Positions 5,061-24,981 of a stretch of DNA of 64,000 nucleotides are shown one piece after another. Numbering within the stretch: the first letter of the stretch is position 1; each line of letters begins with the position of its first letter. Origin of the DNA: Candidatus Zixiibacteriota bacterium (GTDB lineage Bacteria > Zixibacteria > MSB-5A5 > GN15 > FEB-12). A program made the position numbers and the translations under genes. The notes below the pieces were generated by a model. The model made no database searches, was not told where the DNA came from, and saw nothing but the letters and a program-made list of their open reading frames with translations. The stretch is taken from positions 132,709 through 196,708 of the forward strand of contig JAOUBJ010000003.1 of assembly GCA_029860345.1 (NCBI GenBank). The letters are read 5' to 3'.

Positions 5061-7031
5061 ATGCCTGGTTTATATCGGAAAGCTGCCTTTCTGGCGGCAA
5101 TTCTGTTGGCGGTCTTCGCCTTCAGCAACAGTGTCCACGCCACAATTCATCACATTGATGTCGGCAACTTCTTCTTCGCCCCGACCGGTACAACCGTCGC
5201 ACCTGGCGACACGGTGCGCTGGACGTTTGTGGGCGGCTCGCACACAACCACCTCTGAGGTTACATCGCCCAAAGCCTGGGATTCAGGAATCATGCCGGTG
5301 TCCGATAGCTTCGATGTGGTCTTCAGCGCCGGTGACGGTCCCGGGCCGTTTCCATACTTGTGTTCGGTGCATCCTTTCAGCATGAAAGATACTATCTTCG
5401 TGACCGCCGCGCCGGCCGAGCCGACTATTTTTGCTTTTAAGATCGATGAAGCCCAGGCTGCTGCCTGCGCCGGTACCGGCAGTTTGGCCAGTGGTTTCGG
5501 CGTGGCTATTCTTAGCGCCGATTCCACCGAAGTATCGTTCCACATCGAGCACGATGTCAGTAGTGTCACCGCTGCTCATGTTCATTTCGCTCCGGCCTGT
5601 ACCAACGGCGGCGTCTCTTTTGCGTTTACTTCGCCCACCAGTCCGATAGTGGAAACCTGGTCGGTGACTTCAAGTGATGTTACAAACCTAATGGCCGGTG
5701 GTCTCTACATTAATATTCACTCCAGCACTTTCCCAGCCGGCGAGATTCGTGGCCAGGTCGAACAACAGACACACAAGATGGCCTTCACCCTCGACGAAGC
5801 CCAGGCCGACGGCGGGGCGGGCACGGGGAGTTTTGCATCCGGTGTGTTCACCGGTGAGTTGAATGCAAGCGCCACCGAGCTGTCGTTCACCGTCACGCAC
5901 GATGTCTCTAATGTTTCCGACGGCCACATACATCTCGGTGCACCCGGTGCAGTGGGACCCATACGATTTGTGTTTTCGGGCCTTACCAGTCCCATCAACG
6001 AGACCTGGATGCTCACTGCTGCCGATGTGATCAATTTCCTCGCGGGTGATCTGTATGTAAACCTCCACACAACGGCCAATCCGTCAGGGGAGATTCGTGG
6101 ACAATTGGTGGCCGGTGAAATCGTCTTTACGCTTGGCCTGGACGAAGCGCAGGCCGATGGCGGCAACGGCACAGGTAGCTCGGCGACCGGATTCTGTGTG
6201 GCAACACTAAACTCGGATACCAAAGAACTCACTGTCTATTGTGAGCACGATGTGGCCGGTCCCAACGACGCTCACATTCATCTGGGCGCTCCGGGTGTGA
6301 GCGGACCGATAGTGAAGGCCTTCACCAGCCCGGTGTCACCGATTTTTGAGACGTTCTTGTGTGACGATGCGGACTACGATGCGATTCTTGCCAGCAGCAC
6401 GTATATCAACATTCACTCGGCATCGTTCCCAGCCGGGGAGATTCGTGGTCAGATTGACCTGGATGCTGACTTTGAAGTAACATTTGGCCTCGATGAATCC
6501 GAAGCCGATGCCTGCGGCGGTACAGGAAGTCCGGCCACCGGTAGCAGCACGGTTACATTGAAGCCGGGCGGTAAGGAACTCACCGTCAGTCTCACCCACG
6601 ATGTTGCCGGTGCCGTTGACGGCCATATTCATCTGGCCCCGGAATGTGTCAACGGGGCGGTTCAGTTTGGATTCACGAGCTTCGCCTCGCCGATCACTGA
6701 AATCTGGTACTTGTCGGATGCCGACGTGATCAACCTGCTGCAAAAGGAATTGTATATCAATATCCACTCGGCGTCGTTTCCCGCCGGAGAGATTCGTGGA
6801 CAGATCGATGTCGATGTGGCGGCCTGGTTCTGTGGTGATATTGATAATAGCGGATCGCCGGCCATCGACATCTCCGACCTGGTCTATCTGGTAGACTTCA
6901 TGTTCACCGGCGGCCCACCACCTGTAAACCCGGGGGCGGCCGATCTGAACGGCGACGGCGTAATTGATATTTCAGACCTGGTCTGGCTGGTTGACTTTAT
7001 GTTCACCGGCGGTCCACCGCCAACCTGCTGA
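5061..7031 (+). CDS. secreted cupredoxin - 4x CHRD - dockerin-like protein
   Basis: A 656-residue exported protein. Signal peptide 1-27; plastocyanin-like domain about 28-113 with a complete type 1 copper set H61, C101, H104, M108 (LCSVHPFSM); then four CHRD domains (about 122-233, 240-349, 353-465, 470-585), each ending in a variant of NIHSASFPAGEIRGQ; finally a dockerin-like tail (about 592-656) with two calcium-loop repeats (DLNGDGVIDISDL). The start has an excellent GGAGG. The tail suggests anchoring or assembly on the surface. The cupredoxin could move electrons outside the inner membrane, but a link to the cytochrome block 5 kb away is speculation. A strong terminator follows. Confidence 0.88.
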   Translation: MPGLYRKAAFLAAILLAVFAFSNSVHATIHHIDVGNFFFAPTGTTVAPGDTVRWTFVGGSHTTTSEVTSPKAWDSGIMPVSDSFDVVFSAGDGPGPFPYLCSVHPFSMKDTIFVTAAPAEPTIFAFKIDEAQAAACAGTGSLASGFGVAILSADSTEVSFHIEHDVSSVTAAHVHFAPACTNGGVSFAFTSPTSPIVETWSVTSSDVTNLMAGGLYINIHSSTFPAGEIRGQVEQQTHKMAFTLDEAQADGGAGTGSFASGVFTGELNASATELSFTVTHDVSNVSDGHIHLGAPGAVGPIRFVFSGLTSPINETWMLTAADVINFLAGDLYVNLHTTANPSGEIRGQLVAGEIVFTLGLDEAQADGGNGTGSSATGFCVATLNSDTKELTVYCEHDVAGPNDAHIHLGAPGVSGPIVKAFTSPVSPIFETFLCDDADYDAILASSTYINIHSASFPAGEIRGQIDLDADFEVTFGLDESEADACGGTGSPATGSSTVTLKPGGKELTVSLTHDVAGAVDGHIHLAPECVNGAVQFGFTSFASPITEIWYLSDADVINLLQKELYINIHSASFPAGEIRGQIDVDVAAWFCGDIDNSGSPAIDISDLVYLVDFMFTGGPPPVNPGAADLNGDGVIDISDLVWLVDFMFTGGPPPTC

Positions 7032-7066
7032 TGATTTGCGGGTCAGGAAGAGCCCGCTGTATAACC

Positions 7067-7110
7067 AATGGGACGCGGCAACAAGGATGTCACCGCGTCC
7101 CATTTCTTTT
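7067..7110 (+). terminator. rho-independent terminator after the cupredoxin-CHRD gene
   Basis: A perfect 12-bp stem (7067-7078 with 7093-7104, AATGGGACGCGG / CCGCGTCCCATT) with a 14-base loop is followed by TCTTTT. It separates this gene from the convergent DUF1573 gene. Confidence 0.85.
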
Positions 7111-7170
7111 CTCGTCATCAACTCACAGAAGATACCCGGCGTCGATAGAGACAAGTATCTGTCACACCGC

Positions 7171-7911
7171 TTACTCCGGCGCCGCCATGGATGAGACCTG
7201 TTTCCCGATCCCGGCGGCCTGGTGTTTCACTGGCACGGTGAATCGACTTCTCTCATCGTCGTCAAGCTCAATCGTGAACGACTTTTCGAACGAGCCGGTC
7301 AAACCGACTTCTGTCAACACCAAGGAGCACTCGGCCGTGCTTTGCGATGCGATGGTTGTCGGCAGGCTGACGTCGAAGTAGTCTTGCGGCAGGTCCACCA
7401 GCCGGAAGGTGAGATCGCCCGGCGAAACGTTCTCGATAGTGAAGGATAGTTCGTTTCGCTGTTTGGCCGTGAACTGGCCGAGAGTCAGTTTGTATGGCGA
7501 TATGATTATCGGGTAGGTTGAGTCCGGCCGGGTTACGATATTAGTGACAAACCGCACCCGCTGGTCGGGCCCACCGGCGTTGGTTTTGATACTGGGGCTT
7601 TTGGATGCCGGACCGCTGCGCTTACCGGTGGAAAAAACAATTTCCAACCTCGTGCTGTCGCCCACGGCCAGGTGGTTGCGCTCCAGCGGCGCTTTGGTAC
7701 AGCCGCATCCGGGCACGACTTTCAGTATCTTCAGACTGTCGGTGCCTTCGGCTTTTAGCCAGAAGACATGCGACAATTTGGCATTCTGCGGACTGAAACC
7801 GAAGTCAAACGACTTCTCGGCAATGCTCAACTTCGGCGCAGCCGACGATGGCGTAGTTCCAATTGCGAGCAGCAACAGGGCCAACAGGATAGACGTGGCA
7901 TACTTATACAT
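7171..7911 (-). CDS. exported DUF1573 protein
   Basis: A 246-residue protein with a signal peptide (1-24, ending TPSSAA) and two Ig-like halves. The first (about 28-125) carries the DUF1573 hallmarks: FDFG followed by VVPGCGCTKA. The second (about 130-235) has similar spacing (LTLGQFTAKQRNELSFTIENV) but no cysteine pair. The start is fixed by AAGGAGGT in front of the ATG. DUF1573 proteins are common exported proteins of the FCB group with no settled function; they resemble ASH/MSP-like scaffold domains. It stands alone, just downstream of the sigma/anti-sigma pair on the same strand (107-base gap), so read-through from that pair is possible. Confidence 0.8.
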   Translation of the reverse strand: MYKYATSILLALLLLAIGTTPSSAAPKLSIAEKSFDFGFSPQNAKLSHVFWLKAEGTDSLKILKVVPGCGCTKAPLERNHLAVGDSTRLEIVFSTGKRSGPASKSPSIKTNAGGPDQRVRFVTNIVTRPDSTYPIIISPYKLTLGQFTAKQRNELSFTIENVSPGDLTFRLVDLPQDYFDVSLPTTIASQSTAECSLVLTEVGLTGSFEKSFTIELDDDERSRFTVPVKHQAAGIGKQVSSMAAPE

Positions 7912-8018
7912 GACGTACCTCCTTGACGGTGCTGTTCACAACACCGTTGTGGTTTGATGTTGATGAGCCGACTCGCTGTCGGCGATATGGACGGCGCTAT
8001 CCGAAAATTGTTATCGTC

Positions 8019-8687
8019 TTACAAAATATCCCGCCCGGCCCGCTCGAGTAGGCTGGCCGAGGCACCCTCGCGCACCGGGATAATATCAGAACTCAACTCG
8101 GCCGTGTTGATACGGGCCAGGGCGTTGACAACCAGTTGTGCTTCCTCAAGTGATTTCAACTCGACCACTTGCACGTTGCAGGTGGTGTCACACTCCAGCA
8201 CATCAACATTGGCCTCCAGGAGACCGAGGTCAAAAAGAAGATCGCAGATGGCCTCATCATCCTCGGCCAGCTCCTTCTCCACGCCGGCAAAAGCGACTGC
8301 GTAACCGATCGTTTGATCATACTGAAACGGTATCAAGGCCACAGCCAGCAAAGCCGCCAACGCCACCGATGCATAAACCACCCGAGCCGGTCGCCACCAC
8401 CGAACGATTGAGAAGCTTCCGGCTGTGCGATCTGTTCCTGCACGGCCATCGCCTGAAGATGCTATCCGAGCCTCGACTCTTTGTCGCGCTTGATGGAAGG
8501 GTGTTATGCCGGATGTGTCGTCCTCGTCCGCTGCCCGCAGAACCTGTGTCAGAAGGCCGGCTGCCTGAGCTTCCTCTCTGCAACGGGGGCAATCTCTGAG
8601 ATGATCCACCAGTGACGAGTCCGTCTGAGGATCGGCGCCCGCCTGCACTAGCTCGTTTATTCTCCGTTGGGCCTGGTCGCAATGCAT
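8019..8687 (-). CDS. anti-sigma factor with zinc-finger (ZAS) domain
   Basis: A 222-residue inner-membrane anti-sigma factor. The N terminus (1-45) has the ZAS signature DHLRDCPRC (H-x3-C-x2-C) expected to grip the partner sigma. One transmembrane segment lies at about 106-122 (VVYASVALAALLAVALIPF), leaving a C-terminal domain of about 95 residues in the periplasm as the likely sensor. Its start lies 31 bases inside the 3' end of the sigma gene, the usual arrangement for a sigma and its own inhibitor. The C-terminal part, which contains a CDTTC motif, matches nothing I can name, so the signal is unknown. Confidence 0.85.
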   Translation of the reverse strand: MHCDQAQRRINELVQAGADPQTDSSLVDHLRDCPRCREEAQAAGLLTQVLRAADEDDTSGITPFHQARQRVEARIASSGDGRAGTDRTAGSFSIVRWWRPARVVYASVALAALLAVALIPFQYDQTIGYAVAFAGVEKELAEDDEAICDLLFDLGLLEANVDVLECDTTCNVQVVELKSLEEAQLVVNALARINTAELSSDIIPVREGASASLLERAGRDIL

Positions 8688-12404: not shown

Positions 12405-13955
12405 CTAATACCCCGAACTCTCGTCGTGACATTCGGTACATAGCATCTCGGCCCAGGCGCCGTCGATGTCTTCCGGATGCTCAAACAAAAGCCCGGTAAT
12501 ATCCGTTTCCAACTCCCCAGGGTCCTCCGATGCACCCTGTGCCACCATCAAGTGACAAGTCTTACAATCTGTGGCCAGAATCTGACCATACTGATTGGTC
12601 TTCTCACCATCGTGACAGCGGAAACAGCCCTCGTTGACGAAGTGGCTGAGGTTGTTTTCCCGCACCCGATAGTCGGTGCGCATCTCCGGGAAAAAGTTCT
12701 GGTCGTAGATTGAAGTCAGTGTTTTCGATGCCTGTTTTATGGCATCGACGGCCGAATCGGCTACTTTGGGGTAATTCTCCTGATAGTAATCGACTAAGCC
12801 ACTGGTGATTTTCATGTGAGCTTCGTCGTTGTCCTTGTAGTCGCCGTTAAGCAAATCGAGACCGACTTGACGAACGTATGGCAAACCGGGGTCTATGCGC
12901 CTTGTCGAGAGGGCCAGGTTAATGGACACCGCCGGCGGTTGAAAGCGGTGCGACGGTCGGTTGTGGCAATCCATGCAGTCGAACCGCCGAATCTCATACA
13001 AGCTTGAGTCCTCCCCTTCCGGAATTTGCAAATCGGTCAGTTCGAATCCGGGATCGGTGTACACGACTGTATCATTTTCGGCAGTGATAAAACGCACCCA
13101 GGGGATTTCCTGGCGTGTGTAATCGGTAGCGATATAATCAACGCGGTTCTCACCGATCATGTGCCAGTGGATACCTTCGGCCCGTCCGGTGCGCGGATTG
13201 CCACCGCCTATTTTGAGCAGCAGCTTTATAGTCCACGGCGAGTTTTCTTCGTCGGTGCGATAGTAGGTCCGCGTACTCAGTTTATCGCCGTAGAATTGTT
13301 GGGGCCAATGACAGTTCTCACAGGTCTCCTGAGCCGGTCTGAGATCGTGCACCGGCGTCTGAATCGGTCTGTCGAACAAATCAAGAGCCGTCGAATACAT
13401 CTGACGCATACCATCGAACTTGGCTTTCACCCAAAACGACGCACCTTCTCCGATATGACACTCAACGCATGGCACCTTGGCATGTGGCGAATTGTGATAG
13501 GTCACGCTCTGAGGTTCCATCACTACATGGCAGGTCTCGCCGCAGAAACCGGTGGAGTCGGTCGCTTCGTATGCCTTGGTCCCTATGTAGGCGACTACAA
13601 AAATCGACACGGACGACAATCCCAAAAAGAGCCAGAGGTTGCGCCAGTTTTGCGGAATGGTAGGATCGATTGACAACCGGAAGCGGATTCGCTCACCGGC
13701 TTTCCTGGCTTTGCGAATCTGCAGGGCCAGCGCACCGCCGAAAAACAGCAAGCCGATTAGCATGATAAAGGGCGCGACGACAAAGGTAACCAGTGAGCGA
13801 TACGGGTTTTCTGTACCACTGCTCAGATCGATCAGCAAAAGGATCAGAAACAAGAAGGCGCCGGAAAACAGCAGTGCTCCGCCGACCGCCGACAAGGGAT
13901 GTCTGAATATCGTTCGCCGCCGGATTTTTTGGGGCTTTTCTACTTCATCAGTCAT
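12405..13955 (-). CDS. NapC/NrfH-like membrane-anchored multihaem cytochrome c
   Basis: A 516-residue cytochrome with three membrane segments (about 20-42, 55-80, 105-125) and a periplasmic domain carrying seven haem sites: CGETCH (138-143, a CX3CH site followed by VVMEP as in NapC/NirT relatives), CVECH 163, CENCH 212, CMDCH 327, CFRCH 444, CKTCH 464 and CTECH 506. NapC/NrfH proteins oxidise quinol and pass electrons to periplasmic partners; here the natural partners would be the cytochromes encoded from 14.7 kb. It is longer than NapC or NrfH (about 200 residues), with extra membrane helices and C-terminal haems. It is divergent from the porin-cytochrome operon, 730 bases apart. Role inferred. 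Confidence 0.85.
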   Translation of the reverse strand: MTDEVEKPQKIRRRTIFRHPLSAVGGALLFSGAFLFLILLLIDLSSGTENPYRSLVTFVVAPFIMLIGLLFFGGALALQIRKARKAGERIRFRLSIDPTIPQNWRNLWLFLGLSSVSIFVVAYIGTKAYEATDSTGFCGETCHVVMEPQSVTYHNSPHAKVPCVECHIGEGASFWVKAKFDGMRQMYSTALDLFDRPIQTPVHDLRPAQETCENCHWPQQFYGDKLSTRTYYRTDEENSPWTIKLLLKIGGGNPRTGRAEGIHWHMIGENRVDYIATDYTRQEIPWVRFITAENDTVVYTDPGFELTDLQIPEGEDSSLYEIRRFDCMDCHNRPSHRFQPPAVSINLALSTRRIDPGLPYVRQVGLDLLNGDYKDNDEAHMKITSGLVDYYQENYPKVADSAVDAIKQASKTLTSIYDQNFFPEMRTDYRVRENNLSHFVNEGCFRCHDGEKTNQYGQILATDCKTCHLMVAQGASEDPGELETDITGLLFEHPEDIDGAWAEMLCTECHDESSGY

Positions 13956-14685: not shown

Positions 14686-15648
14686 ATGAGCAGTAGACCA
14701 ACGCATTGGCGACGATACAAGAGGCTTGGATCGATCCTGGCCATAGGTGTTATCGTTCTGTCGATACCACTGGTTCTCTATGGCGCTGAGGTTCCCGATG
14801 AGACCTGTCTGGACTGCCACGACGGTTTGGATAGTTCACTGGCGGAAGGAGTTCATCGGCTGAGTTCCCAGACCACCGGGTACGCCCTTGAGGTCGGGTG
14901 CGTGAATTGCCATACGGGTGGCGAGGCTCATATCGACGATCCGTCAACGGACAATATCACCAACCCCAGCCGCCTGATAGGCACCGAAGTTACCACACTG
15001 TGTTCCAAGTGTCATCAATCGCACCAGGAACTTGACGATTATGGTTTTGATGCTCACTCGACTTTGGAGATAAACTGTGCCGAATGCCATCGCGTACACA
15101 GTGTCGGTGGCCAGGAGTTGCTCGATGATCGGGCTGAGTTCTGTTTGAAGTGTCACCAGGAAATGAGCAACAAACTCTCCCGCCGGTCCAATCATCCGGT
15201 GCTTCAGGACAACGTCACCTGTTTGTCATGCCATAATTTCACCAAGCGGGCCGACCATAATACGGTCTATGGGTTAGGGGGCGTCTGTCAGGACTGTCAT
15301 CCCGATCAGGGCGGTCCCTTCCTGCATGAACATGCGGCCACCCAGGCATACGCGGTGACAGGCAGTCACTGTGTCGAATGCCACAACCCGCACGGCAGTG
15401 AGAACAATCGTCTGTTGCGTCAGCCGGGGAATCAGATGTGTCGCTCATGCCATGTTGAGCATGTTACCAGAAACCACGCCGATCTTTGGGATAACGTGTG
15501 GAGCAAACAGCCGTGTCAAACCTGCCATACTGATACCCACGGTTCTTTTGTCAGCGCGCTCTATCTGGACCCGGACTTACCCGCCAAACTCGGCGGGAAC
15601 TGCTATGATGCCGGATGTCATTCTCTCAACGGTCAGGGAGGCAACTAA
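14686..15648 (+). CDS. MtrA/DmsE-like periplasmic multihaem cytochrome c
   Basis: A 320-residue exported cytochrome with an N-terminal signal segment (about 12-33). It has ten CXXCH motifs (starting at 41, 72, 106, 131, 153, 179, 201, 229, 252, 277) and one CX4CH site, CYDAGCH (306-312). Length and haem spacing are close to MtrA/DmsE/PioA, the periplasmic decahaem cytochromes that sit in an outer-membrane porin. The next gene, whose ATG overlaps this stop, encodes that porin. GAGG precedes the ATG. It is expected to carry electrons from periplasmic donors into the conduit. The eleventh, CX4CH site is unusual for MtrA. Confidence 0.87.
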   Translation: MSSRPTHWRRYKRLGSILAIGVIVLSIPLVLYGAEVPDETCLDCHDGLDSSLAEGVHRLSSQTTGYALEVGCVNCHTGGEAHIDDPSTDNITNPSRLIGTEVTTLCSKCHQSHQELDDYGFDAHSTLEINCAECHRVHSVGGQELLDDRAEFCLKCHQEMSNKLSRRSNHPVLQDNVTCLSCHNFTKRADHNTVYGLGGVCQDCHPDQGGPFLHEHAATQAYAVTGSHCVECHNPHGSENNRLLRQPGNQMCRSCHVEHVTRNHADLWDNVWSKQPCQTCHTDTHGSFVSALYLDPDLPAKLGGNCYDAGCHSLNGQGGN

Positions 15649-17222
15649 TGGGACACTCTGTCATTACAAAACTGACCTTCCTGTTCGCGGCCTGTTGCCT
15701 GTTGCTTTGGGCACCTGCGCTGGCTGGTGAGGGGGGCGGCTCGATCAAGGCCGGTTATATCTACATCGACGAGGAAGGCAACCGGGGCGTAAATCATGAA
15801 ACCTACAACAGCTATGAAGGTCTGGGTATCTCGTTCGAGAACTGGAGATACCGGGTCAATAACAGCATCACTCTCCGGGCCGACCTTCGCAACCTCACGC
15901 TCAACAATCGTAACCTGCGTCTCTCAGCATCCAAGCCGGGACGGTTCAACATTTCGCTTAACAACAATCAATACCGGCGCAGCTATGATTTCGACGGCCT
16001 TCAGTTTACACGCCGACGCTCAACGGGCATGAAAATATCGGTACAACCATATCGAGAGATCACGCTGTTTGGTGGCTTCGGCCGGTCTGACAAACACGGC
16101 AACAGTGCCGTGCTGCTCTCCCCTGTTGCCGACACAGTCTATCACAGCACCGATTATGAGCACAGCAAATGGAACTTAGGCGCTCTGGCCGCCTTGCCAT
16201 ACGGCTTTGCACGGCTTGAATACCGTAGTTCAAGTTTCGATGATCGCCTGATCTCGAACGGTGATCGCAAGGCTGCCGGCATCAACCTGGATGCTCACAT
16301 CCGAGTACCCAATTACAGTTGGCTTGATCTGTCCGGCGGATACTACCACCGCACCGACGAGTACGAATCATCCGGCCTCGAATTGAAAACCAACCAGGGC
16401 TGGGGCGGATTCAAGCTTCATCTGCCCAAACTTCATCAAGTCGAGTATCGGCTACTCTTTGCTCGCACCAGGCACACCGGCGAAAACTCAGAGACCGACA
16501 ATGTCGTCAACACTTTGGCCGTTGGAAAAGCAATCAAAGGATATGGTGGTGTCAGGATAGGCTACGAGAATCGCATATCCGATGACCTTGTTGATCGCAC
16601 CGTTTCGCACGGGCTCCTGATCAAGGCCTGGTACGACTATCAGCGACGCTTGTTTATCAAGGCCTCGTTGGCCACACGCAAAAAACAAGTCAAGACCGGT
16701 GCCACGCTGCTTGGTGATGAAGACCTGACCCGCCACCGAGTAACGGCGCAGTATCGCAGTGCGGCGTGGGGCGACATCAGAGCACAGTGGCAGGGACGCT
16801 TCAGAACCAACGATGACTTGAACAGCCAAGTTGATTACCAATCGATCTCGCTGAATGCCAATCTGAAACGATCCGAATACGGGCGAGTAGCCATAGCCTA
16901 CAGCTACTACATGGGCAAGTACGAAAACACCGACCTCAATACCGGGTTTGAGTTCGCAGATAATGTCATTTCGGCAACACTGTATCCCAGGTCATACCGG
17001 AAGACTAATGCCTACATCGGCGGCAGCTACTATCGCAGCCGTCGCGACCTGGACACGGAGAAATTCAGCCTCAATTTCGGTGTGACATACGGCTTCCTGA
17101 AAGACCATGAGTTGGAAATCAAATACAATGTGTTCAACTTTGATGACTACCTGGCGCGAAGCGCCTACTACACAGCCAACATCGTTGAGATAAACGTTAA
17201 GAAAGCAGTATCTTTAGATTGA
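15648..17222 (+). CDS. MtrB/PioB-like outer-membrane beta-barrel of a porin-cytochrome complex
   Basis: A 524-residue outer-membrane barrel. I start it at the ATG at 15648, which overlaps the upstream stop (TAATG) and has AGGGAGG before it; this gives a clean signal peptide (MGHSVITK...APALAG). The frame stays open 33 bases further up but without a ribosome site. The mature part alternates polar and aromatic residues in strand-length blocks throughout and has no cytochrome motif. It lacks an N-terminal CXXC of the MtrB type that I can see. Flanked by the MtrA-like and lipoprotein cytochromes, it should sheath the haem wire through the outer membrane. Assigned by position and barrel pattern, not by a signature. 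Confidence 0.75.
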   Translation: MGHSVITKLTFLFAACCLLLWAPALAGEGGGSIKAGYIYIDEEGNRGVNHETYNSYEGLGISFENWRYRVNNSITLRADLRNLTLNNRNLRLSASKPGRFNISLNNNQYRRSYDFDGLQFTRRRSTGMKISVQPYREITLFGGFGRSDKHGNSAVLLSPVADTVYHSTDYEHSKWNLGALAALPYGFARLEYRSSSFDDRLISNGDRKAAGINLDAHIRVPNYSWLDLSGGYYHRTDEYESSGLELKTNQGWGGFKLHLPKLHQVEYRLLFARTRHTGENSETDNVVNTLAVGKAIKGYGGVRIGYENRISDDLVDRTVSHGLLIKAWYDYQRRLFIKASLATRKKQVKTGATLLGDEDLTRHRVTAQYRSAAWGDIRAQWQGRFRTNDDLNSQVDYQSISLNANLKRSEYGRVAIAYSYYMGKYENTDLNTGFEFADNVISATLYPRSYRKTNAYIGGSYYRSRRDLDTEKFSLNFGVTYGFLKDHELEIKYNVFNFDDYLARSAYYTANIVEINVKKAVSLD

Positions 17223-17229
17223 GGAGTAA

Positions 17230-19344
17230 ATGATGAGACAGTTGAGAATTGCAGCAGTGGGGCTGGCCGTTTTGATAGCGGTTTTCTCAGGCTGCGAGAG
17301 AAAGGTCACCGAGGAAGTGACCAAAATCGTCGCAGCCGAGGACGCTGCCGAATACATCGGAAGCTCTGCCTGTGGCGCATGTCATGCAGCTACCTATGAG
17401 AGTTTCCAGAACACCGGACACCCTTACAAGCTAAACGAGGCTGAAGATGTCCAGGCGGGTGACTACTATCCGTTCAGCGATGTGCCCGATGCGCCCTCTA
17501 TAGTATCATGGGACGATGTTGACAAAGTGATCGGTGGCTTCTGGTGGAAAGCGCGATTCATTCGCCACTCAGGCTCTATAGTTACCGGCGCCGCGGTCCA
17601 GTACAATCTGGCCACCGAGGGATGGGTCGGCTACCATGATGGGGAGGACCTCCCCTACGATTGTGGTCCCTGTCACATGACCGCCTATCGCGATACCGGC
17701 AACCAGGAAGGCCACGACAGCCTGATCGGTACCTGGGCATTCGGCGGCGTTCAGTGCGAGGAATGCCACGGTGCCGGTAGTCTGCATGCTTCCACACCCT
17801 ACGATGTCGCCATGAAAATCGACCGCTCCAACGAAGGTTGCGGCAAGTGCCACATCCGCGGCGATGTCAATAAGATTCCGGCCAGCGGAAGTTTTGTGAA
17901 GCATCACGAACAGTGGAACGAGATGTTCACCACCAAGCACGCCTCTATCCAGTGTGTGGACTGTCACGACGTGCACTATGGTTTGCATCCGGATAGCCCC
18001 GACCGCGACATGGCTATCAAGCTCACCTGTGAGAATTGCCATCTGGAAAAAACAGAATCGTTCGGGCGGACCGATATCGAGGAACACCTAAGCAGCCCGT
18101 TCGCGCCCGGCTGTATCGATTGCCACATGCCCAAAGGAGCCAAATCGGCCGTGGCAGCGGATACTTATGTCGGCGACGTGACTTCGCATTTGTGGCGGAT
18201 CAATACCGATGTCGACGCCGAGTACATCACCGACAACTTCGCCAACGGTTACCTGACTGTGGAGTACACCTGCCTTCAGTGTCACACCACCGAAGACAAG
18301 GCCTGGGCAGCGGCCAACGCCGACCGCTCCCACGCTCCCAACACGGCTGATACCGATGTTTGCATGACCTGCCACGACGGTTCCAACAATCTCGCTCAAA
18401 AAGTGATTGCCGCCACTCGTCAGTGGGAGTTCTCACTCCACGCAACCGGCGAACGCTCTGATCGCAGCCGTGGCTCTTGCGCTCCGTGTCATACCAATGA
18501 AGGATTCATAGCCGATCTTGAGGGTGAAGAAGTTGCCGGCGACGTCTTCAACGCCATCGGTTGTTTCACTTGCCACGATCCTCACACCAATGGATCGTTC
18601 GCTATCAGAACCACCGATGAAGTGGAGCTGGGCGACGGCACCGAATTCGACAACGGTATCTCAAATCTGTGTGCCAACTGCCACAAGAGCCGTCGCGATG
18701 TAGCTACCTACGTCGTAGCCGGCAAGGAAATGAGCAACCACTTCGGTCCCCATCACGGACCTCATGCCGACATGGTGATGGGCACAAACGCCTATGAGTA
18801 CGACGGATATACCTACACCAACTCGTGGCACACGTCTGGAATCGACGATCCCTGCCTGAGCTGCCACTACGACGAAGCCGACCGTTACGAATTCGGTGGA
18901 CATAGCTTCCGAATGAGGAACGAGGACGGCGATGAAAACGTCGAGGCCTGCAATATTACCGGCTGTCACGGCGACGAGTTCGAAATCGACAGCTTGAACA
19001 GGGTTGCCGACGCGGACTTCGACGGTGACGGTAACATCGAAGGCGTATTCGATGAGATCGAGGGTCTTATTGATGACCTGCAGGATGAGTTGATCGCGGC
19101 CGGCCTGCTCGAATGGATTGCCGAGGATGGCATTTGGGAACCTACCGATGACCTGGTTGTGCCGAACGTTGACAGTTTGGGCGCTGTCTACAACTGGGCC
19201 TTCGTCCATGAGGACCAGTCGCACGGCATCCACAACACTCTGTACGCTGTGGGGCTCTTGCGATCAGCCTATAATTACATGACGACCGGTGATCCCAACG
19301 GCGCTCCCGCCAGGCGGAAACCTGTCATGTTGACAACTCATTAG
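17230..19344 (+). CDS. outer-membrane lipoprotein multihaem cytochrome c
   Basis: A 704-residue lipoprotein: the lipobox FSGC puts the lipidated Cys at residue 22. It has thirteen CXXCH motifs (starting at 48, 145, 176, 204, 242, 267, 295, 348, 378, 417, 445, 481, 542) and one CX4CH, CNITGCH (574-580). After residue 585 there is an acidic haem-free tail with a calcium-like loop DADFDGDGN and a segment around GIHNTLYAVGLLRSA. It lies 7 bases after the barrel gene, with GAGGAG before the start. In porin-cytochrome complexes the third protein is an outer cytochrome that meets the external acceptor; this is the natural candidate, though it looks unlike MtrC/OmcA in domain layout. A strong terminator follows. 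Confidence 0.85.
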   Translation: MMRQLRIAAVGLAVLIAVFSGCERKVTEEVTKIVAAEDAAEYIGSSACGACHAATYESFQNTGHPYKLNEAEDVQAGDYYPFSDVPDAPSIVSWDDVDKVIGGFWWKARFIRHSGSIVTGAAVQYNLATEGWVGYHDGEDLPYDCGPCHMTAYRDTGNQEGHDSLIGTWAFGGVQCEECHGAGSLHASTPYDVAMKIDRSNEGCGKCHIRGDVNKIPASGSFVKHHEQWNEMFTTKHASIQCVDCHDVHYGLHPDSPDRDMAIKLTCENCHLEKTESFGRTDIEEHLSSPFAPGCIDCHMPKGAKSAVAADTYVGDVTSHLWRINTDVDAEYITDNFANGYLTVEYTCLQCHTTEDKAWAAANADRSHAPNTADTDVCMTCHDGSNNLAQKVIAATRQWEFSLHATGERSDRSRGSCAPCHTNEGFIADLEGEEVAGDVFNAIGCFTCHDPHTNGSFAIRTTDEVELGDGTEFDNGISNLCANCHKSRRDVATYVVAGKEMSNHFGPHHGPHADMVMGTNAYEYDGYTYTNSWHTSGIDDPCLSCHYDEADRYEFGGHSFRMRNEDGDENVEACNITGCHGDEFEIDSLNRVADADFDGDGNIEGVFDEIEGLIDDLQDELIAAGLLEWIAEDGIWEPTDDLVVPNVDSLGAVYNWAFVHEDQSHGIHNTLYAVGLLRSAYNYMTTGDPNGAPARRKPVMLTTH

Positions 19345-19361: not shown

Positions 19362-19395
19362 AAAAGGCCCCTTCAGACGAAGGGGCCTTTTTTGT
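19362..19395 (+). terminator. rho-independent terminator of the porin-cytochrome operon
   Basis: A 12-bp perfect stem AAAAGGCCCCTT (19362-19373) / AAGGGGCCTTTT (19380-19391) with a 6-base loop and following Ts. It ends the 14686-19344 operon. Confidence 0.93.
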
Positions 19396-19718: not shown

Positions 19719-21689
19719 TCAAGTGTCGGCTGCGCGTTCCTTGCGCACTCTGTCATCCTTGCTTTCGCCAACACTGTCGCGCGAAGCCATATTCTCACGA
19801 TCCAGTTCCAGTATGATCGGATCTTCGGGATGCTCGTGACGATACTTGTCGACCGGCATCTTGCCTGAGTACCAGGCCGGGTTCATCGGATAGGTTCCGG
19901 GATTGAAAACAGTGGCATATAGATGCCAAACCATAATGGCCAGCGTGGCCAACCAGGCCTCATAGAAGTGAACCACCAACGCCACATCCAGATATGACTT
20001 GGAGAGCCACCCAATGAAGAAGTTGTCGAACCACAAGAGCAGTCCCGTTGCCACCATTACTACCGTACCCCAAACAAGCGCCCAGTACTCCGCTTTCTCA
20101 ATATAGGCGAAGCGTCCGAAACGAGGCTTGTCTTTGGCCAGGCCAAGATTGTAGCCGATCAGTTGAATCGCCTGTCGCAAGTCTGTCATGGTCGGGATCA
20201 TGTCCCTGAGGAAGCCTCTCCCGCGAGCCGTCATCAAGTAGAGCAGATGCCAAACAGTGGTCACTATCAACATCACCGCCGAAATACGGTGGATCGTGCC
20301 ACGGAGTTCGAAGCCGCCTTCCCACCCAAACAAAAGGTGAACCCATGTAGAATCGGAATACCTGAGAGCGAAGCCGGATACCACCAATGAAATGAAGGAC
20401 ACTGTCAGAAACGTGTGCTGCCACACTTCGCTTCTCGTCATGCGGACCAGTTGGGGACCCTTGCTGACTTTCTGAATCTCCTTGCGAAGGTCGATCAGCC
20501 AGTGAAGAAGCATACCCCCAATAACAAGAAGGATCAACCAAATATAGATATCTTTGACAATATTGGCCAGACGGTTGTCTTCCAAACCGGGATCACCATG
20601 GATTGGGGTCTGAGCTATCTCGGCTGAAATCTCGGGGTGACAGTTACCACAAGTTTCTTCAAGATTGTCGGCGTGGATCGATGACGTCGGATCGCTGTGA
20701 TCAAGGATGCGGTGACCACCGTGACAGGAAGCACAATTGGCCACCGACTGATCGCCAGCCTGGCTCTTCAATCCGTGATAGCTGTCGACATAGCTGACCT
20801 CTTCACCAGTGGGGATTTCATACTTTTCATTCAAGGCCGCCGATTCGTGACAGGGGCTGCAAGTAGCTTCGGCAATTCGGTCGGGACTTACCGGCGAACG
20901 AGGATCACTGGAGGCTATGATCCCGTGCTCACCGTGACAGTGGGTGCAGACCGGCGAATCATTATCCCCCTGCAGAACCAGTTGACCATGAATGCCATCC
21001 CAGAAGTCGCGCTCGATTCGTTGATGGCATTTTCCGCAGGTCTTTGGAATATTGAAATGGTTGACCGATGACTCCAGATGATTGGCCGCCAAAATATGAT
21101 GCGAACTGCCACCGGGGGAATGACAATCGACACAGGTTGCGGCCGAGTAGATACCGCCAATCTCGGTCTTCCCATGAACTGAACTTTGGTATGTCTGTAC
21201 CGCCTGATCGTAAAGAGTCACATGCTTCTCGGTCATATCCAGATTCTCATGGCACTTTCCGCACGTATACGGCAGATTGATCGGATTCACCCGAGATTGC
21301 TTCTCACTTGAGGCCAGAATATCGTGACGACCATGACAATTCGCGCAGCCGGGAATATCCACGCCACTCTCGGTCTTGAGTCGGCCATGCCACATGTATG
21401 TTTCGCTCACATCGGAGTGGCAGTCGCCGCATGGAACAGAGCCGGGCGTCTCCTCGTGCGGCAACTGTTCAATATCCAAATGACAATCGGTACATGAGAA
21501 TCCCTCATGAACCGAGCCGTTCAAGGCGACATCAAAAGCATGGTCACCATTGTCCTCGGTAACATCGTGGCAATCCAAACATGCGGTGGTACCGTCTCCT
21601 ACATCTTCCTGCGCCCGGACAGGCACCCCGACACAAATCAGAAGAACCAGAAGGGCCGACCAAAAACCAATGTTATGCGTTCGTATCAT
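19719..21689 (-). CDS. CbcL-like fusion: 11-haem cytochrome c plus membrane cytochrome b
   Basis: A 656-residue protein: signal peptide (1-26), eleven CXXCH motifs between residues 37 and 351 (CLDCH, CTDCH, CGDCH, CANCH, CGKCH, CVDCH, CGKCH, CTHCH, CSPCH, CASCH, CGNCH), then a membrane domain from about 382 with HydC/FdnI-type cytochrome b helices and histidines (IHRISAVMLIVTTVWH; VVHFYEAWLATLAIMVWH). This order matches CbcL of Geobacter, an inner-membrane quinol oxidase feeding the extracellular route. The CASCHGGH and HGEHGIIASSDP stretches repeat every 60-70 residues. It is divergent from the 19-haem relative at 22180. The last 20 or so residues are charged and abut a repeat region. Function inferred from architecture. 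Confidence 0.85.
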   Translation of the reverse strand: MIRTHNIGFWSALLVLLICVGVPVRAQEDVGDGTTACLDCHDVTEDNGDHAFDVALNGSVHEGFSCTDCHLDIEQLPHEETPGSVPCGDCHSDVSETYMWHGRLKTESGVDIPGCANCHGRHDILASSEKQSRVNPINLPYTCGKCHENLDMTEKHVTLYDQAVQTYQSSVHGKTEIGGIYSAATCVDCHSPGGSSHHILAANHLESSVNHFNIPKTCGKCHQRIERDFWDGIHGQLVLQGDNDSPVCTHCHGEHGIIASSDPRSPVSPDRIAEATCSPCHESAALNEKYEIPTGEEVSYVDSYHGLKSQAGDQSVANCASCHGGHRILDHSDPTSSIHADNLEETCGNCHPEISAEIAQTPIHGDPGLEDNRLANIVKDIYIWLILLVIGGMLLHWLIDLRKEIQKVSKGPQLVRMTRSEVWQHTFLTVSFISLVVSGFALRYSDSTWVHLLFGWEGGFELRGTIHRISAVMLIVTTVWHLLYLMTARGRGFLRDMIPTMTDLRQAIQLIGYNLGLAKDKPRFGRFAYIEKAEYWALVWGTVVMVATGLLLWFDNFFIGWLSKSYLDVALVVHFYEAWLATLAIMVWHLYATVFNPGTYPMNPAWYSGKMPVDKYRHEHPEDPIILELDRENMASRDSVGESKDDRVRKERAADT

Positions 21690-22179: not shown

Positions 22180-24981
22180 GTGACCAACAACATTTCCGGA
22201 CGCTTGAGCCTTTTCATCTTCGTTCTGCTGACCATTTTCATTGCGGGACCGGCCTCGGCCCAGGAGGTTGATGACTGTCTGGCCTGCCATGATGATCCCG
22301 ACCTTACCAAAGAACGCCGGGGCCGAGAGGTATCCCTGTTTGTCAACCTGGATAGCTTTCACAAATCGGTCCATGGAGATCAGGATTGTATCGATTGTCA
22401 CCAGGACCTTACCGATGTTGACTTTCCGCATGAGGATTCCCTTGAACCTGTCGACTGCTCAATGTGTCACGACGACGTGGCCGAGACCTACATGGCCAGT
22501 CTGCACGGCGAGTTGGTGGCCAAAGGTGAAGACCTGGCGCCTAAGTGCTGGGACTGTCATGGTGCTCATGATATAGTAGGACCGGATCAGCCCGGTTCGG
22601 CTGTTACCAAGTTCAATATTCCGGTTATGTGCGGGCGATGTCATAAAGAGGGTTCGGCAGTGACGCGAGCCTATGATATCCCGGAAGACAGCGTTCTTTC
22701 CAACTACTCGCAATCGATCCACGGCGTTGGTCTGTTTCAACGAGGGTTAACTGTTACCGCAGTATGTGTGGATTGCCACACCGCGCATAACGTCCGTGAC
22801 CACACCGATCCTGAATCGTCGATTCATCGCGGCAATGTCGCCAACACCTGTCAACAGTGTCACGGCCAGATTGAGAAGGTCCATCGCAAAGTAATCCGCG
22901 GCGAGTTATGGGAGAAGCAACCCGAGCAGGTGCCGGTGTGTGTGGACTGTCACTCCCCTCACAAAATCCGGAGAGTATTCTACGAAGAAGGGATGGCCGA
23001 CCGCGAATGCATGGAATGCCACCAACAACCTGATCTTTCCATAACCAGGGACGGCGAGGTTCATTCGCTGTATGTCGACTCCATCGAAACGCACAGCTCG
23101 ATACACCGCAACACTTCCTGCGCCCAGTGTCATACCGGTGCAACACCCGGACTCGACAGACCCTGCGCCACCGTGGCTACAAGTGTGGACTGTTCCAATT
23201 GCCATCCCGAGATTGTCGACATTTATAAGACCGGTATGCACGGTACCCTGGCCGATAGGGGCGACGAAGATGCTCCGTCATGCACAGATTGTCACGGTAT
23301 ACACGATATTCGCGAGAAACTCGACAAGCTCTCACCCACCTTTCCCACCAACGTCCCCGAACTTTGCGGAAAGTGTCACCGCGAAGGTAACCAGGCAGCC
23401 GTGAGATACTACAATGGAGCGGAGCATCCGGACCATATCGTCGAGAACTACCGCATGTCGATTCACGGTAAGGGACTTCTGCAAAGCGGGCTGATTGTGA
23501 CCGCTATGTGCACCGACTGCCATACGGCGCACCATGTCTTGCCCCATGATGACCCGGAATCGAGCATACACCACGACAAAATTGCTGAGACTTGTGCCAA
23601 TTGTCACCACGGTATCTATGAACAGTTCACCAGTAGTGTTCACTCGCCCACCGTCACGGACACCGACAAACCGTTGCCCAACTGCAAGGACTGTCACCAG
23701 TCGCATACCATCAGTCGCGCCGACAAAGTAGATTTCAGACTGACGCTAAGAGACCAGTGCGGCGGCTGTCACGAGGAGGTTACCGAAAGTTACTTTGAGA
23801 CATTTCACGGCAAGGTATCCAAGTTGGGCTACTCGGCCGCGGCGCAGTGCTACGATTGTCACGGCGCTCACAATATACTCCCACCCGACAATCCGAAATC
23901 TACTCTGGCCCGACAGCATATTGTCGAGACCTGCGGCAAATGCCACAGCGGTTCTCATCGCCAGTTTGCCGGATACCTGACCCACGCCACCCACCATGAT
24001 CGGGACAAGTACCCGATTTTGTTTTACACTTTCTGGTTCATGACCTGCCTGTTGATCGGTACCCTGGTAATCGCCTTGACCCACACGCTACTGTGGTTGC
24101 CGCGCTCCTTCCAGGCCATGCGGCAGCATAAAAAGATGCGCGAGGACATGCGCGGACAGTTGCAGTATCGAAGATTCAAACCGCTGCATAGCCGGTTGCA
24201 CATTCTGGTGGTCATCAGTTTCCTCGGACTGGCCTTGACCGGCATGACCCTCAAGTTCTCCTACCTCGGTTGGGCTCAATGGATATCGGCTCTGCTGGGC
24301 GGTTTTGAATCGGCCGGGTTCATACATCGCTTGTGCGCGGTAATCACTTTCTTCTACTTCGGGGTGCATGTCTTCGATCTCATCTGGGTGAATCGGCACA
24401 AGAAGGTATCTCTGAAAGCGATGCTACGAAGCCCATATTCGATGTTGCCGAACTGGACGGATGCAAAAGAAGTGTATCACACCTTGAAGTGGTTCATCGG
24501 CATGGGCCCGCGCCCGGCTTACGGACGCTGGACCTACTGGGAGAAGTTTGACTACTTTGCCGTCTTTTGGGGTGTCGCTATTATCGGCAGCACCGGACTA
24601 ATGCTGTGGTTCCCGGAGTTTTTCACGCATCTCTTCCCCGGTTGGTTCATAAATGTGGCCACGATCATACACTCGGACGAAGCCCTTCTGGCGGTGGCCT
24701 TTATTTTCACCGTGCACTTTTTCAACACCCATTTTCGGCCGGACAAATTCCCGATGGATACGGTCATTTTCACCGGTCGCATGCCGCTTGAAGAACTCAG
24801 GCTGGAACGCCCCCGCGAATACGATCACCTGGTCAAGACTCATCAGTTGAGAAAGCACCTCATCGAACCGTTACCGCCGGCCATGGAGCGAACGGCGCGA
24901 GTTTTCGGCGCCATCGCCTTGACTATCGGGATCACCATAATCCTGCTCATTGTCTACGCCGAAGTATTCGGTTATCGTTGA
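22180..24981 (+). CDS. CbcL-like fusion: 19-haem cytochrome c plus membrane cytochrome b
   Basis: A 933-residue protein starting at GTG 22180. Signal peptide (1-28); nineteen CXXCH motifs between about residues 33 and 612, the last being CGKCH followed by SGSHRQF; then a membrane cytochrome b domain from about 613 to the end, with paired-His helices (FIHRLCAVITFFYFGVHVF; IIHSDEALLAVAFIFTVHFF). The periplasmic part contains an internal duplication: CWDCHGAHDI...CGRCHKEG...CVDCHTAHNV...DPESSIH and CTDCHGIHDI...CGKCHREG...CTDCHTAHHV...DPESSIH. It is built like the divergent 11-haem protein but much larger. Probably a quinone-linked inner-membrane oxidoreductase with a long haem arm reaching across the periplasm. 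Confidence 0.85.
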   Translation: MTNNISGRLSLFIFVLLTIFIAGPASAQEVDDCLACHDDPDLTKERRGREVSLFVNLDSFHKSVHGDQDCIDCHQDLTDVDFPHEDSLEPVDCSMCHDDVAETYMASLHGELVAKGEDLAPKCWDCHGAHDIVGPDQPGSAVTKFNIPVMCGRCHKEGSAVTRAYDIPEDSVLSNYSQSIHGVGLFQRGLTVTAVCVDCHTAHNVRDHTDPESSIHRGNVANTCQQCHGQIEKVHRKVIRGELWEKQPEQVPVCVDCHSPHKIRRVFYEEGMADRECMECHQQPDLSITRDGEVHSLYVDSIETHSSIHRNTSCAQCHTGATPGLDRPCATVATSVDCSNCHPEIVDIYKTGMHGTLADRGDEDAPSCTDCHGIHDIREKLDKLSPTFPTNVPELCGKCHREGNQAAVRYYNGAEHPDHIVENYRMSIHGKGLLQSGLIVTAMCTDCHTAHHVLPHDDPESSIHHDKIAETCANCHHGIYEQFTSSVHSPTVTDTDKPLPNCKDCHQSHTISRADKVDFRLTLRDQCGGCHEEVTESYFETFHGKVSKLGYSAAAQCYDCHGAHNILPPDNPKSTLARQHIVETCGKCHSGSHRQFAGYLTHATHHDRDKYPILFYTFWFMTCLLIGTLVIALTHTLLWLPRSFQAMRQHKKMREDMRGQLQYRRFKPLHSRLHILVVISFLGLALTGMTLKFSYLGWAQWISALLGGFESAGFIHRLCAVITFFYFGVHVFDLIWVNRHKKVSLKAMLRSPYSMLPNWTDAKEVYHTLKWFIGMGPRPAYGRWTYWEKFDYFAVFWGVAIIGSTGLMLWFPEFFTHLFPGWFINVATIIHSDEALLAVAFIFTVHFFNTHFRPDKFPMDTVIFTGRMPLEELRLERPREYDHLVKTHQLRKHLIEPLPPAMERTARVFGAIALTIGITIILLIVYAEVFGYR

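Follow-up and report, generated by a model that had tools for sequence, protein, structure and literature searches.

An OcwA-type outer cytochrome as a swappable module on a predicted extracellular electron conduit in Zixiibacteriota

Introduction

What kind of protein stands at the outer end of a porin-cytochrome operon whose third gene encodes a lipoprotein with 14 haem motifs, and how did it come to be there? Porin-cytochrome operons have already been noted in Zixibacteria (FeGenie, PMC7005843; PMC9769843), and the diversity of the outer Pcc cytochromes is known from an earlier survey (PMC4245776). The operon examined here occupies positions 14686-19344 of a 64,000-nucleotide stretch of DNA (the window) from Candidatus Zixiibacteriota bacterium, a member of an uncultured phylum (assembly GCA_029860345.1, contig JAOUBJ010000003.1, positions 132,709 to 196,708). 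All coordinates are those of the window, and (+) and (-) denote the strand. An initial annotation, made from the sequence alone, had described the locus as a minimal outer-membrane conduit and its lipoprotein as a possible new class of terminal reductase.

Results

Operon layout and distribution

The annotated gene order (MtrA-like cytochrome, MtrB-like porin, lipoprotein), the coordinates and the spacing of -1 and 7 bases were confirmed exactly. The operon is complete. The ATG of the porin gene at 15648 overlaps the stop codon of the MtrA-like gene by one base, 7 bases separate the porin stop from the start of the lipoprotein gene at 17230, and the single strong terminator claimed after the operon was found at 19362-19393 (+) (fold -27.4 kcal/mol, z = -5.6). 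This is the sole MtrA-porin locus found in the host genome, which is 4.76 Mb in size and 99% complete. The porin and the lipoprotein are each present in one copy, and the MtrA profile gives one strong match together with weaker multihaem loci.

The operon is kept in dozens of relatives. At a threshold of 1e-10 the lipoprotein was matched in 91 of the 133 genomes of the phylum, and in 61 of the 79 high-quality genomes. Within the window's own genus it is present in two of seven genomes (G000 and G048, as against G043-G047), and the genomes lacking it are 91-98% complete, which points to patchy retention or to transfer of the locus. An apparently identical protein occurs in L004, labelled Calditrichota, and in G017 (L084), which is placed in the window's own family; the public labels of such MAGs may therefore be unreliable.

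The MtrA-like cytochrome and the porin

The MtrA-like periplasmic cytochrome (14686-15648, +) carries 10 CXXCH motifs and a C-terminal CX4CH (CYDAGCH, 15601-15621, +), identified by motif scan and by its column in the alignment of relatives, giving 11 haem motifs in all. The eleventh was absent from the initial annotation. Membership of the MtrA family is given by a profile match to the solved MtrA (6r2q_A, 1.7e-46); the protein scores below the NCBIfam cut-offs for DmsE and GSU2203. In 55 relatives the eleventh column holds CX4CH in 35, CXXCH in 7 and other residues in 13, i.e. a motif is kept in 42. The CX4CH of the lipoprotein (CNITGCH, 18949-18969, +, the fourteenth haem site) behaves similarly, with CX4CH in 34, CXXCH in 14 and other residues in 2 of 50 relatives. 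Because both columns alternate between CX4CH and CXXCH, the two are probably real haem sites, that of the lipoprotein very probably so. In the solved complex haem 10 of MtrA contacts MtrC (PMC7198977), so that, by analogy, an extra C-terminal haem may lengthen the wire towards the outer module. In 12 operons whose outer cytochrome consists of a C module alone (see below), the eleventh motif is C-X-C-H, e.g. GSCFCHN (L113, L117, L119, L127, L128, L134-L137, L140, L141 and L146).

The porin (15648-17222, +, 524 aa with signal peptide) had no sequence match in Pfam, NCBIfam or PDB and is assigned by fold only. Its AlphaFold2 model (pLDDT 85.9) has 26 strands, the number found in MtrB (PMC7198977). 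The best PDB fold match is MtrB itself (6r2q_B, E 6.8e-15, TM 0.75), and the next are TonB-dependent receptors with TM no higher than 0.54. Taken with the MtrA profile match, this supports the reading of the locus as an outer-membrane conduit sheathed by an MtrB-type barrel.

Neighbouring quinone cytochromes

The divergent neighbour of the operon (12405-13955, -) encodes an ImcH-like inner-membrane quinol-oxidising cytochrome of 516 aa with three transmembrane segments, one CX3CH (CGETCH at 138) and six CXXCH. It matches NapC/NirT in Pfam, NrfH in NCBIfam and NrfH in PDB (6e-5), and agrees with the published ImcH layout of 495-519 aa, three transmembrane segments, a CX3CH next to a transmembrane segment and six CX2CH (PMC6295460). 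On the other side lie two CbcL-like cytochromes recognised with Pfam and NCBIfam, one with 11 CXXCH and an FdnI/b561-type membrane domain (19719-21689, -) and the second with 19 CXXCH and a b561-type membrane domain (22180-24981, +). Both have the CbcL/MtrH/MtoC layout of an N-terminal multihaem part followed by an FdnI-like b-type membrane part (PMC6295460), and are assigned by that layout. Elsewhere, too, the operon has genes similar to these neighbours on its flanks, and ImcH-like kin adjoin it in about ten other loci. As the 2018 survey contained no mtrAB adjacent to imcH (PMC6295460), the linkage of an ImcH-like gene (12405-13955) with mtrAB-like genes (beginning at 14686) seems to be new.

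These neighbours bear on the direction of electron flow, which might be inward, the conduit serving uptake of electrons from Fe(II), steel or a partner cell. Conduits of the MtrAB type run in both directions, as MtoAB and PioAB illustrate. Homologs of CbcL/MtrH/MtoC are found in reducers and oxidisers alike (PMC6295460), and either role has been suggested for Zixibacteria (PMC8478452). Reports of ImcH homologs, however, are confined to Fe(III) reducers (PMC6295460), and an ImcH-like gene adjoins this operon; OcwA and OmhA, the kin of the lipoprotein described below, are reductases. We regard inward flow as unlikely and take the conduit to run outwards in what follows.

The 14-haem lipoprotein

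The third gene (17230-19344, +) encodes a putative outer-surface lipoprotein cytochrome of 704 aa with a VFSGC lipobox, the lipid-bearing Cys22 of which is invariant across the 13 closest full-length relatives. The motif count bears out the 13 CXXCH and one CX4CH (residues 574-580) originally noted, where about 0.07 CXXCH would be expected by chance. The haem-free acidic tail, put at about 120 residues in the initial annotation, comprises 124 (18970-19341, +), 26 of them D/E as against 5 K/R. It contains a DxDxDG loop and an NrfA/OcwA-type three-helix segment, with a conserved S.GxHN at the end. The loop, DFDGDGNIE (19015-19041, residues 596-604), is EF-hand-like, lies between the last haem and the three helices, is present in the consensus of the C module and is a possible calcium site.

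Two modules can be distinguished. The N module (17341-18345, +, residues ~38-372) has eight CXXCH (haems 1-8), the first four of which align with haems 1-4 of OcwA, a cytochrome c554-like scaffold. The C module (18355-19341, +, residues ~376-704) has five CXXCH and the CX4CH (haems 9-14) followed by the C-terminal tail, with helices at 606-623, 647-662 and 670-686 in the predicted model. That model has a pLDDT of 86.5 and a pTM of 0.59, falling below pLDDT 50 in the linker at 372-385.

We infer that the lipoprotein lies outside the cell, exposed at the surface. In relatives the N module occurs alone or duplicated. In L023 it carries a T9SS sorting tail (39 bits, the cut-off being 23), and in archaea (L018-L022) a C-terminal hydrophobic segment with a basic end, both of which independently favour an extracellular module.

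Some of the more distant occurrences are unusual in themselves. The archaeal proteins (Ca. Pyrohabitans, Methanoperedenaceae, Methanosarcinales) are products of single genes, with the 8-haem N module, a C-terminal anchor and no porin. The L023 protein (6941-8437), with its T9SS type A sorting domain, comes from a record labelled Desulfobulbaceae, for which that secretion route is unexpected. A 1738-aa ORF in a Phycisphaerae MAG (L025:2090-7306) has 26 CXXCH, includes an N module and matches the C module weakly. C-module-like proteins without a nearby porin were found in L154-L169, several with just 3-4 CXXCH, and in L167 and L169 PKD-like repeats lie behind the C-module-like part. The C-module genes of G088, G094, G115 and G116 have in-frame stops, representing decay or assembly errors.

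Relationship to known cytochromes

The lipoprotein might be a divergent MtrC/OmcA, as PF22113 (MtrC/MtrF domains II/IV) matches it at 55 bits with a cut-off of 30. Three shuffled controls in which only the C..CH positions were kept nevertheless reach 44-53 bits, and the match straddles the module boundary and the linker. TIGR03507 is absent, there was no structural match to an Ig-like or split-barrel plus pentahaem arrangement, and neither MtrC nor OmcA is among the PDB sequence or fold matches. PF22113 was accordingly rejected as a sign of membership, the earlier observation that the MtrC/OmcA layout is lacking stands, and descent from that family is scarcely credible.

A profile of the lipoprotein family instead matched OcwA in PDB at 1.5e-39, along two segments of which the second extends to the C-terminus. 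Next came OmhA at 1e-25 and MccA at 2.7e-16, followed by octahaem nitrite reductase/NrfA. The single sequence without a profile still matched OcwA at 2.4e-10, and a profile of the C module only matched OcwA at 8.4e-10 and NrfA at 1e-5. A shuffled lipoprotein that kept its haem motifs gave no OcwA match. The fold search with the model returned only OcwA, OmhA and MccA; the global TM-scores against OcwA are low (0.25-0.36), probably because the model has no haems and its modules are joined by the low-confidence linker. OcwA is a c554-like tetrahaem unit fused to an NrfA-like pentahaem unit with a three-helix bundle (PMC6703420), and the haem-free three-helix tail is included in the likeness. By sequence profile and predicted fold, both halves of the lipoprotein belong to the OcwA/OmhA/NrfA superfamily. 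In the alignment its haems 1-4 correspond to OcwA haems 1-4 and its haems 10-14 to OcwA haems 5-9, with five inserted between; OcwA proper has nine haems in one unit and the lipoprotein has 14 motifs. The proposed class of terminal reductase is thus not wholly new, since this superfamily already includes extracellular terminal reductases of Gram-positive bacteria. Matches of the C-module tail to influenza haemagglutinin in PDB (E 0.02) were dismissed as a chance acidic-helix likeness that disappeared with the profile. Matches of the family to UshA-like, GSU2203 and DmsE entries of NCBIfam, far under the cut-offs, were put down to generic haem-motif similarity.

In OcwA the open haems 2 and 5 sit under His-His motifs, of which HH281/282 is described (PMC6703420). 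The motif at haem 2 appears to be conserved as His225-His226 (17902-17907, +; 93% and 100% in 27 N modules), a pair placed by residue offset, OcwA 200-255 being outside the printed alignment. A possible counterpart of the motif over haem 5 is His508-His509 (18751-18756, +), conserved at 100% and 78%, for which the register against OcwA is ambiguous. Judging from the homology, haem 2, and perhaps haem 10, would be five-coordinate and ligand-binding, each beneath a His-His pair.

An alternative is that the protein works mainly as an enzyme at the cell surface whose acceptor is soluble (nitrite, hydroxylamine, sulfite or a different oxyanion), drawing electrons from the MtrA-porin base as an extracellular DMSO reductase does from DmsE/DmsF. 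Besides the conserved His-His motif, its nearest solved kin (OcwA, MccA, octahaem nitrite reductase and NrfA) are in keeping with this, and OcwA itself shows slow nitrite reduction as well as activity on hydroxylamine (PMC6703420). Against it, every haem motif ends in CH, so that the CXXCK haem of NrfA and octahaem nitrite reductase is missing, as is the long-spaced CX15CH of MccA, and no enzyme family matched the protein over its full length. Moreover, relatives drop the N or the C module, which leaves no single active site common to all. The initial annotation had singled out clear homology, over the full length, to a known soluble enzyme family such as the octahaem enzymes as the observation that would count against its proposal; the five inserted haems, the lack of a CXXCK catalytic haem and the module-variable architecture speak against such homology. 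We consider a dedicated soluble-acceptor enzyme quite unlikely, and a conduit to an extracellular acceptor remains the preferred reading.

Module exchange among relatives

The comparison covered 61 distinct operons chosen with a porin directly upstream of the outer cytochrome; in 55 of these the contig carries MtrA as well. The third position is filled by a C module alone in 38, N+C in 12, N alone in 6, N+N in 4, and split N and C in 1. Whatever module follows, the leader is near-constant (CERKVTEE..., CERKVVNE..., CEREITGD...; mostly a 'CERKVT'-type lipobox leader), which suggests that modules have been exchanged behind a fixed signal and anchor. The architectures need at least 15 changes on the porin tree and 14 on the MtrA tree where the least possible is 4, exact counts being soft because the trees are quick ones with long branches (L008, L115, L017). 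Taken alone, the starred branches of the porin tree force 5 for C, 7 for N+C, 5 for N and 4 for N+N.

Three of the N+N proteins (L010, L011, L098) have two copies that are each other's nearest kin, and on this comparison at least these three pairs are separate tandem duplications. The fourth, L012, is probably another. One genus, g28, holds C (G057), N+N (G058) and N+C (G059, G060). The comparison indicates that the outer modules have been swapped, dropped or duplicated many times between relatives upon a constant MtrA-porin base. We found no earlier report of OcwA-type outer cytochromes in porin-cytochrome operons, or of their modular exchange, in a search confined largely to open-access papers and without preprints.

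Discussion

We think it likely that the locus encodes a trans-outer-membrane conduit that serves respiration on an extracellular acceptor, its outer cytochrome built of OcwA-type modules. Menaquinol would be oxidised by the ImcH-like and CbcL-like inner-membrane cytochromes. Electrons would then cross the periplasm to the 11-haem MtrA-like wire within the MtrB-type barrel, emerge at its outer end and enter the lipid-anchored cytochrome, whose N module has eight haems and whose C module, with its three-helix tail, has six. The outer cytochrome would spread them to an acceptor, most likely either a mineral of Fe(III) or Mn(IV) or a partner cell. Going by the homology, small ligands could bind at haem 2 and perhaps at haem 10. 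Exchange, loss and duplication of the outer modules on a constant base presumably tune reach and acceptor.

A more tentative proposal goes further. One MtrA-porin base may act as a socket for several modules of OcwA/NrfA lineage, exchanged and duplicated to alter length and acceptor, with the 14-haem form a surface reductase in which one wire would feed two distinct haems (2 and 10), each able to bind a ligand. If so, lineages change length and acceptor by exchanging or duplicating modules. Outer Pcc cytochromes are known to be diverse and to co-evolve poorly with their base, and here the origin of the diversity can be read directly. Homologous bases with near-identical leaders bear heads of 8, 6, 14 or 16 haems, three of these forms within one genus, and so offer natural matched sets for testing the role of the extracellular head. 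The findings also link two lineages hitherto apart, the OcwA/OmhA surface reductases of Gram-positive bacteria and the MtrAB conduits of Gram-negative bacteria, and bear on the relation of both to enzymes of the nitrogen and sulfur cycles.

The locus resembles MtrCAB of Shewanella (PDB 6r2q) in its MtrA-type wire, 26-strand MtrB-type barrel and outer lipoprotein cytochrome. It differs in that the outer cytochrome is from another superfamily, the MtrA-like protein has an eleventh, CX4CH haem motif and the porin could not be matched to MtrB by sequence. With the Pcc clusters of Geobacter and Ignavibacterium (OmbB-OmaB-OmcB) it shares a porin, a periplasmic cytochrome and an outer cytochrome that varies widely and has unusual haem motifs. 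As far as consulted, the survey of those clusters (PMC4245776) describes neither module exchange behind a constant leader nor a relationship to OcwA. It found no atypical motif in the periplasmic Pcc cytochromes, whereas CX4CH is typical of the MtrA-like proteins here. OmhA of Carboxydothermus ferrireducens (PDB 6qvm), a cell-surface Fe(III) reductase, is of the same superfamily as the lipoprotein; it has 11 haems, comes from a Gram-positive organism and is stated to be unassociated with porin-cytochrome complexes (PMC7829351). OcwA of Thermincola potens (PDB 6i5b) shares the c554-like first four haems, the NrfA-like last five, the three-helix tail and apparently the His-His at haem 2. OcwA, however, is a single unit of nine haems in a cell with neither outer membrane nor porin, whereas the cytochrome described here has 14 haems (five of them inserted), is lipid-anchored, is encoded third in a porin-cytochrome operon and is made of separable modules.
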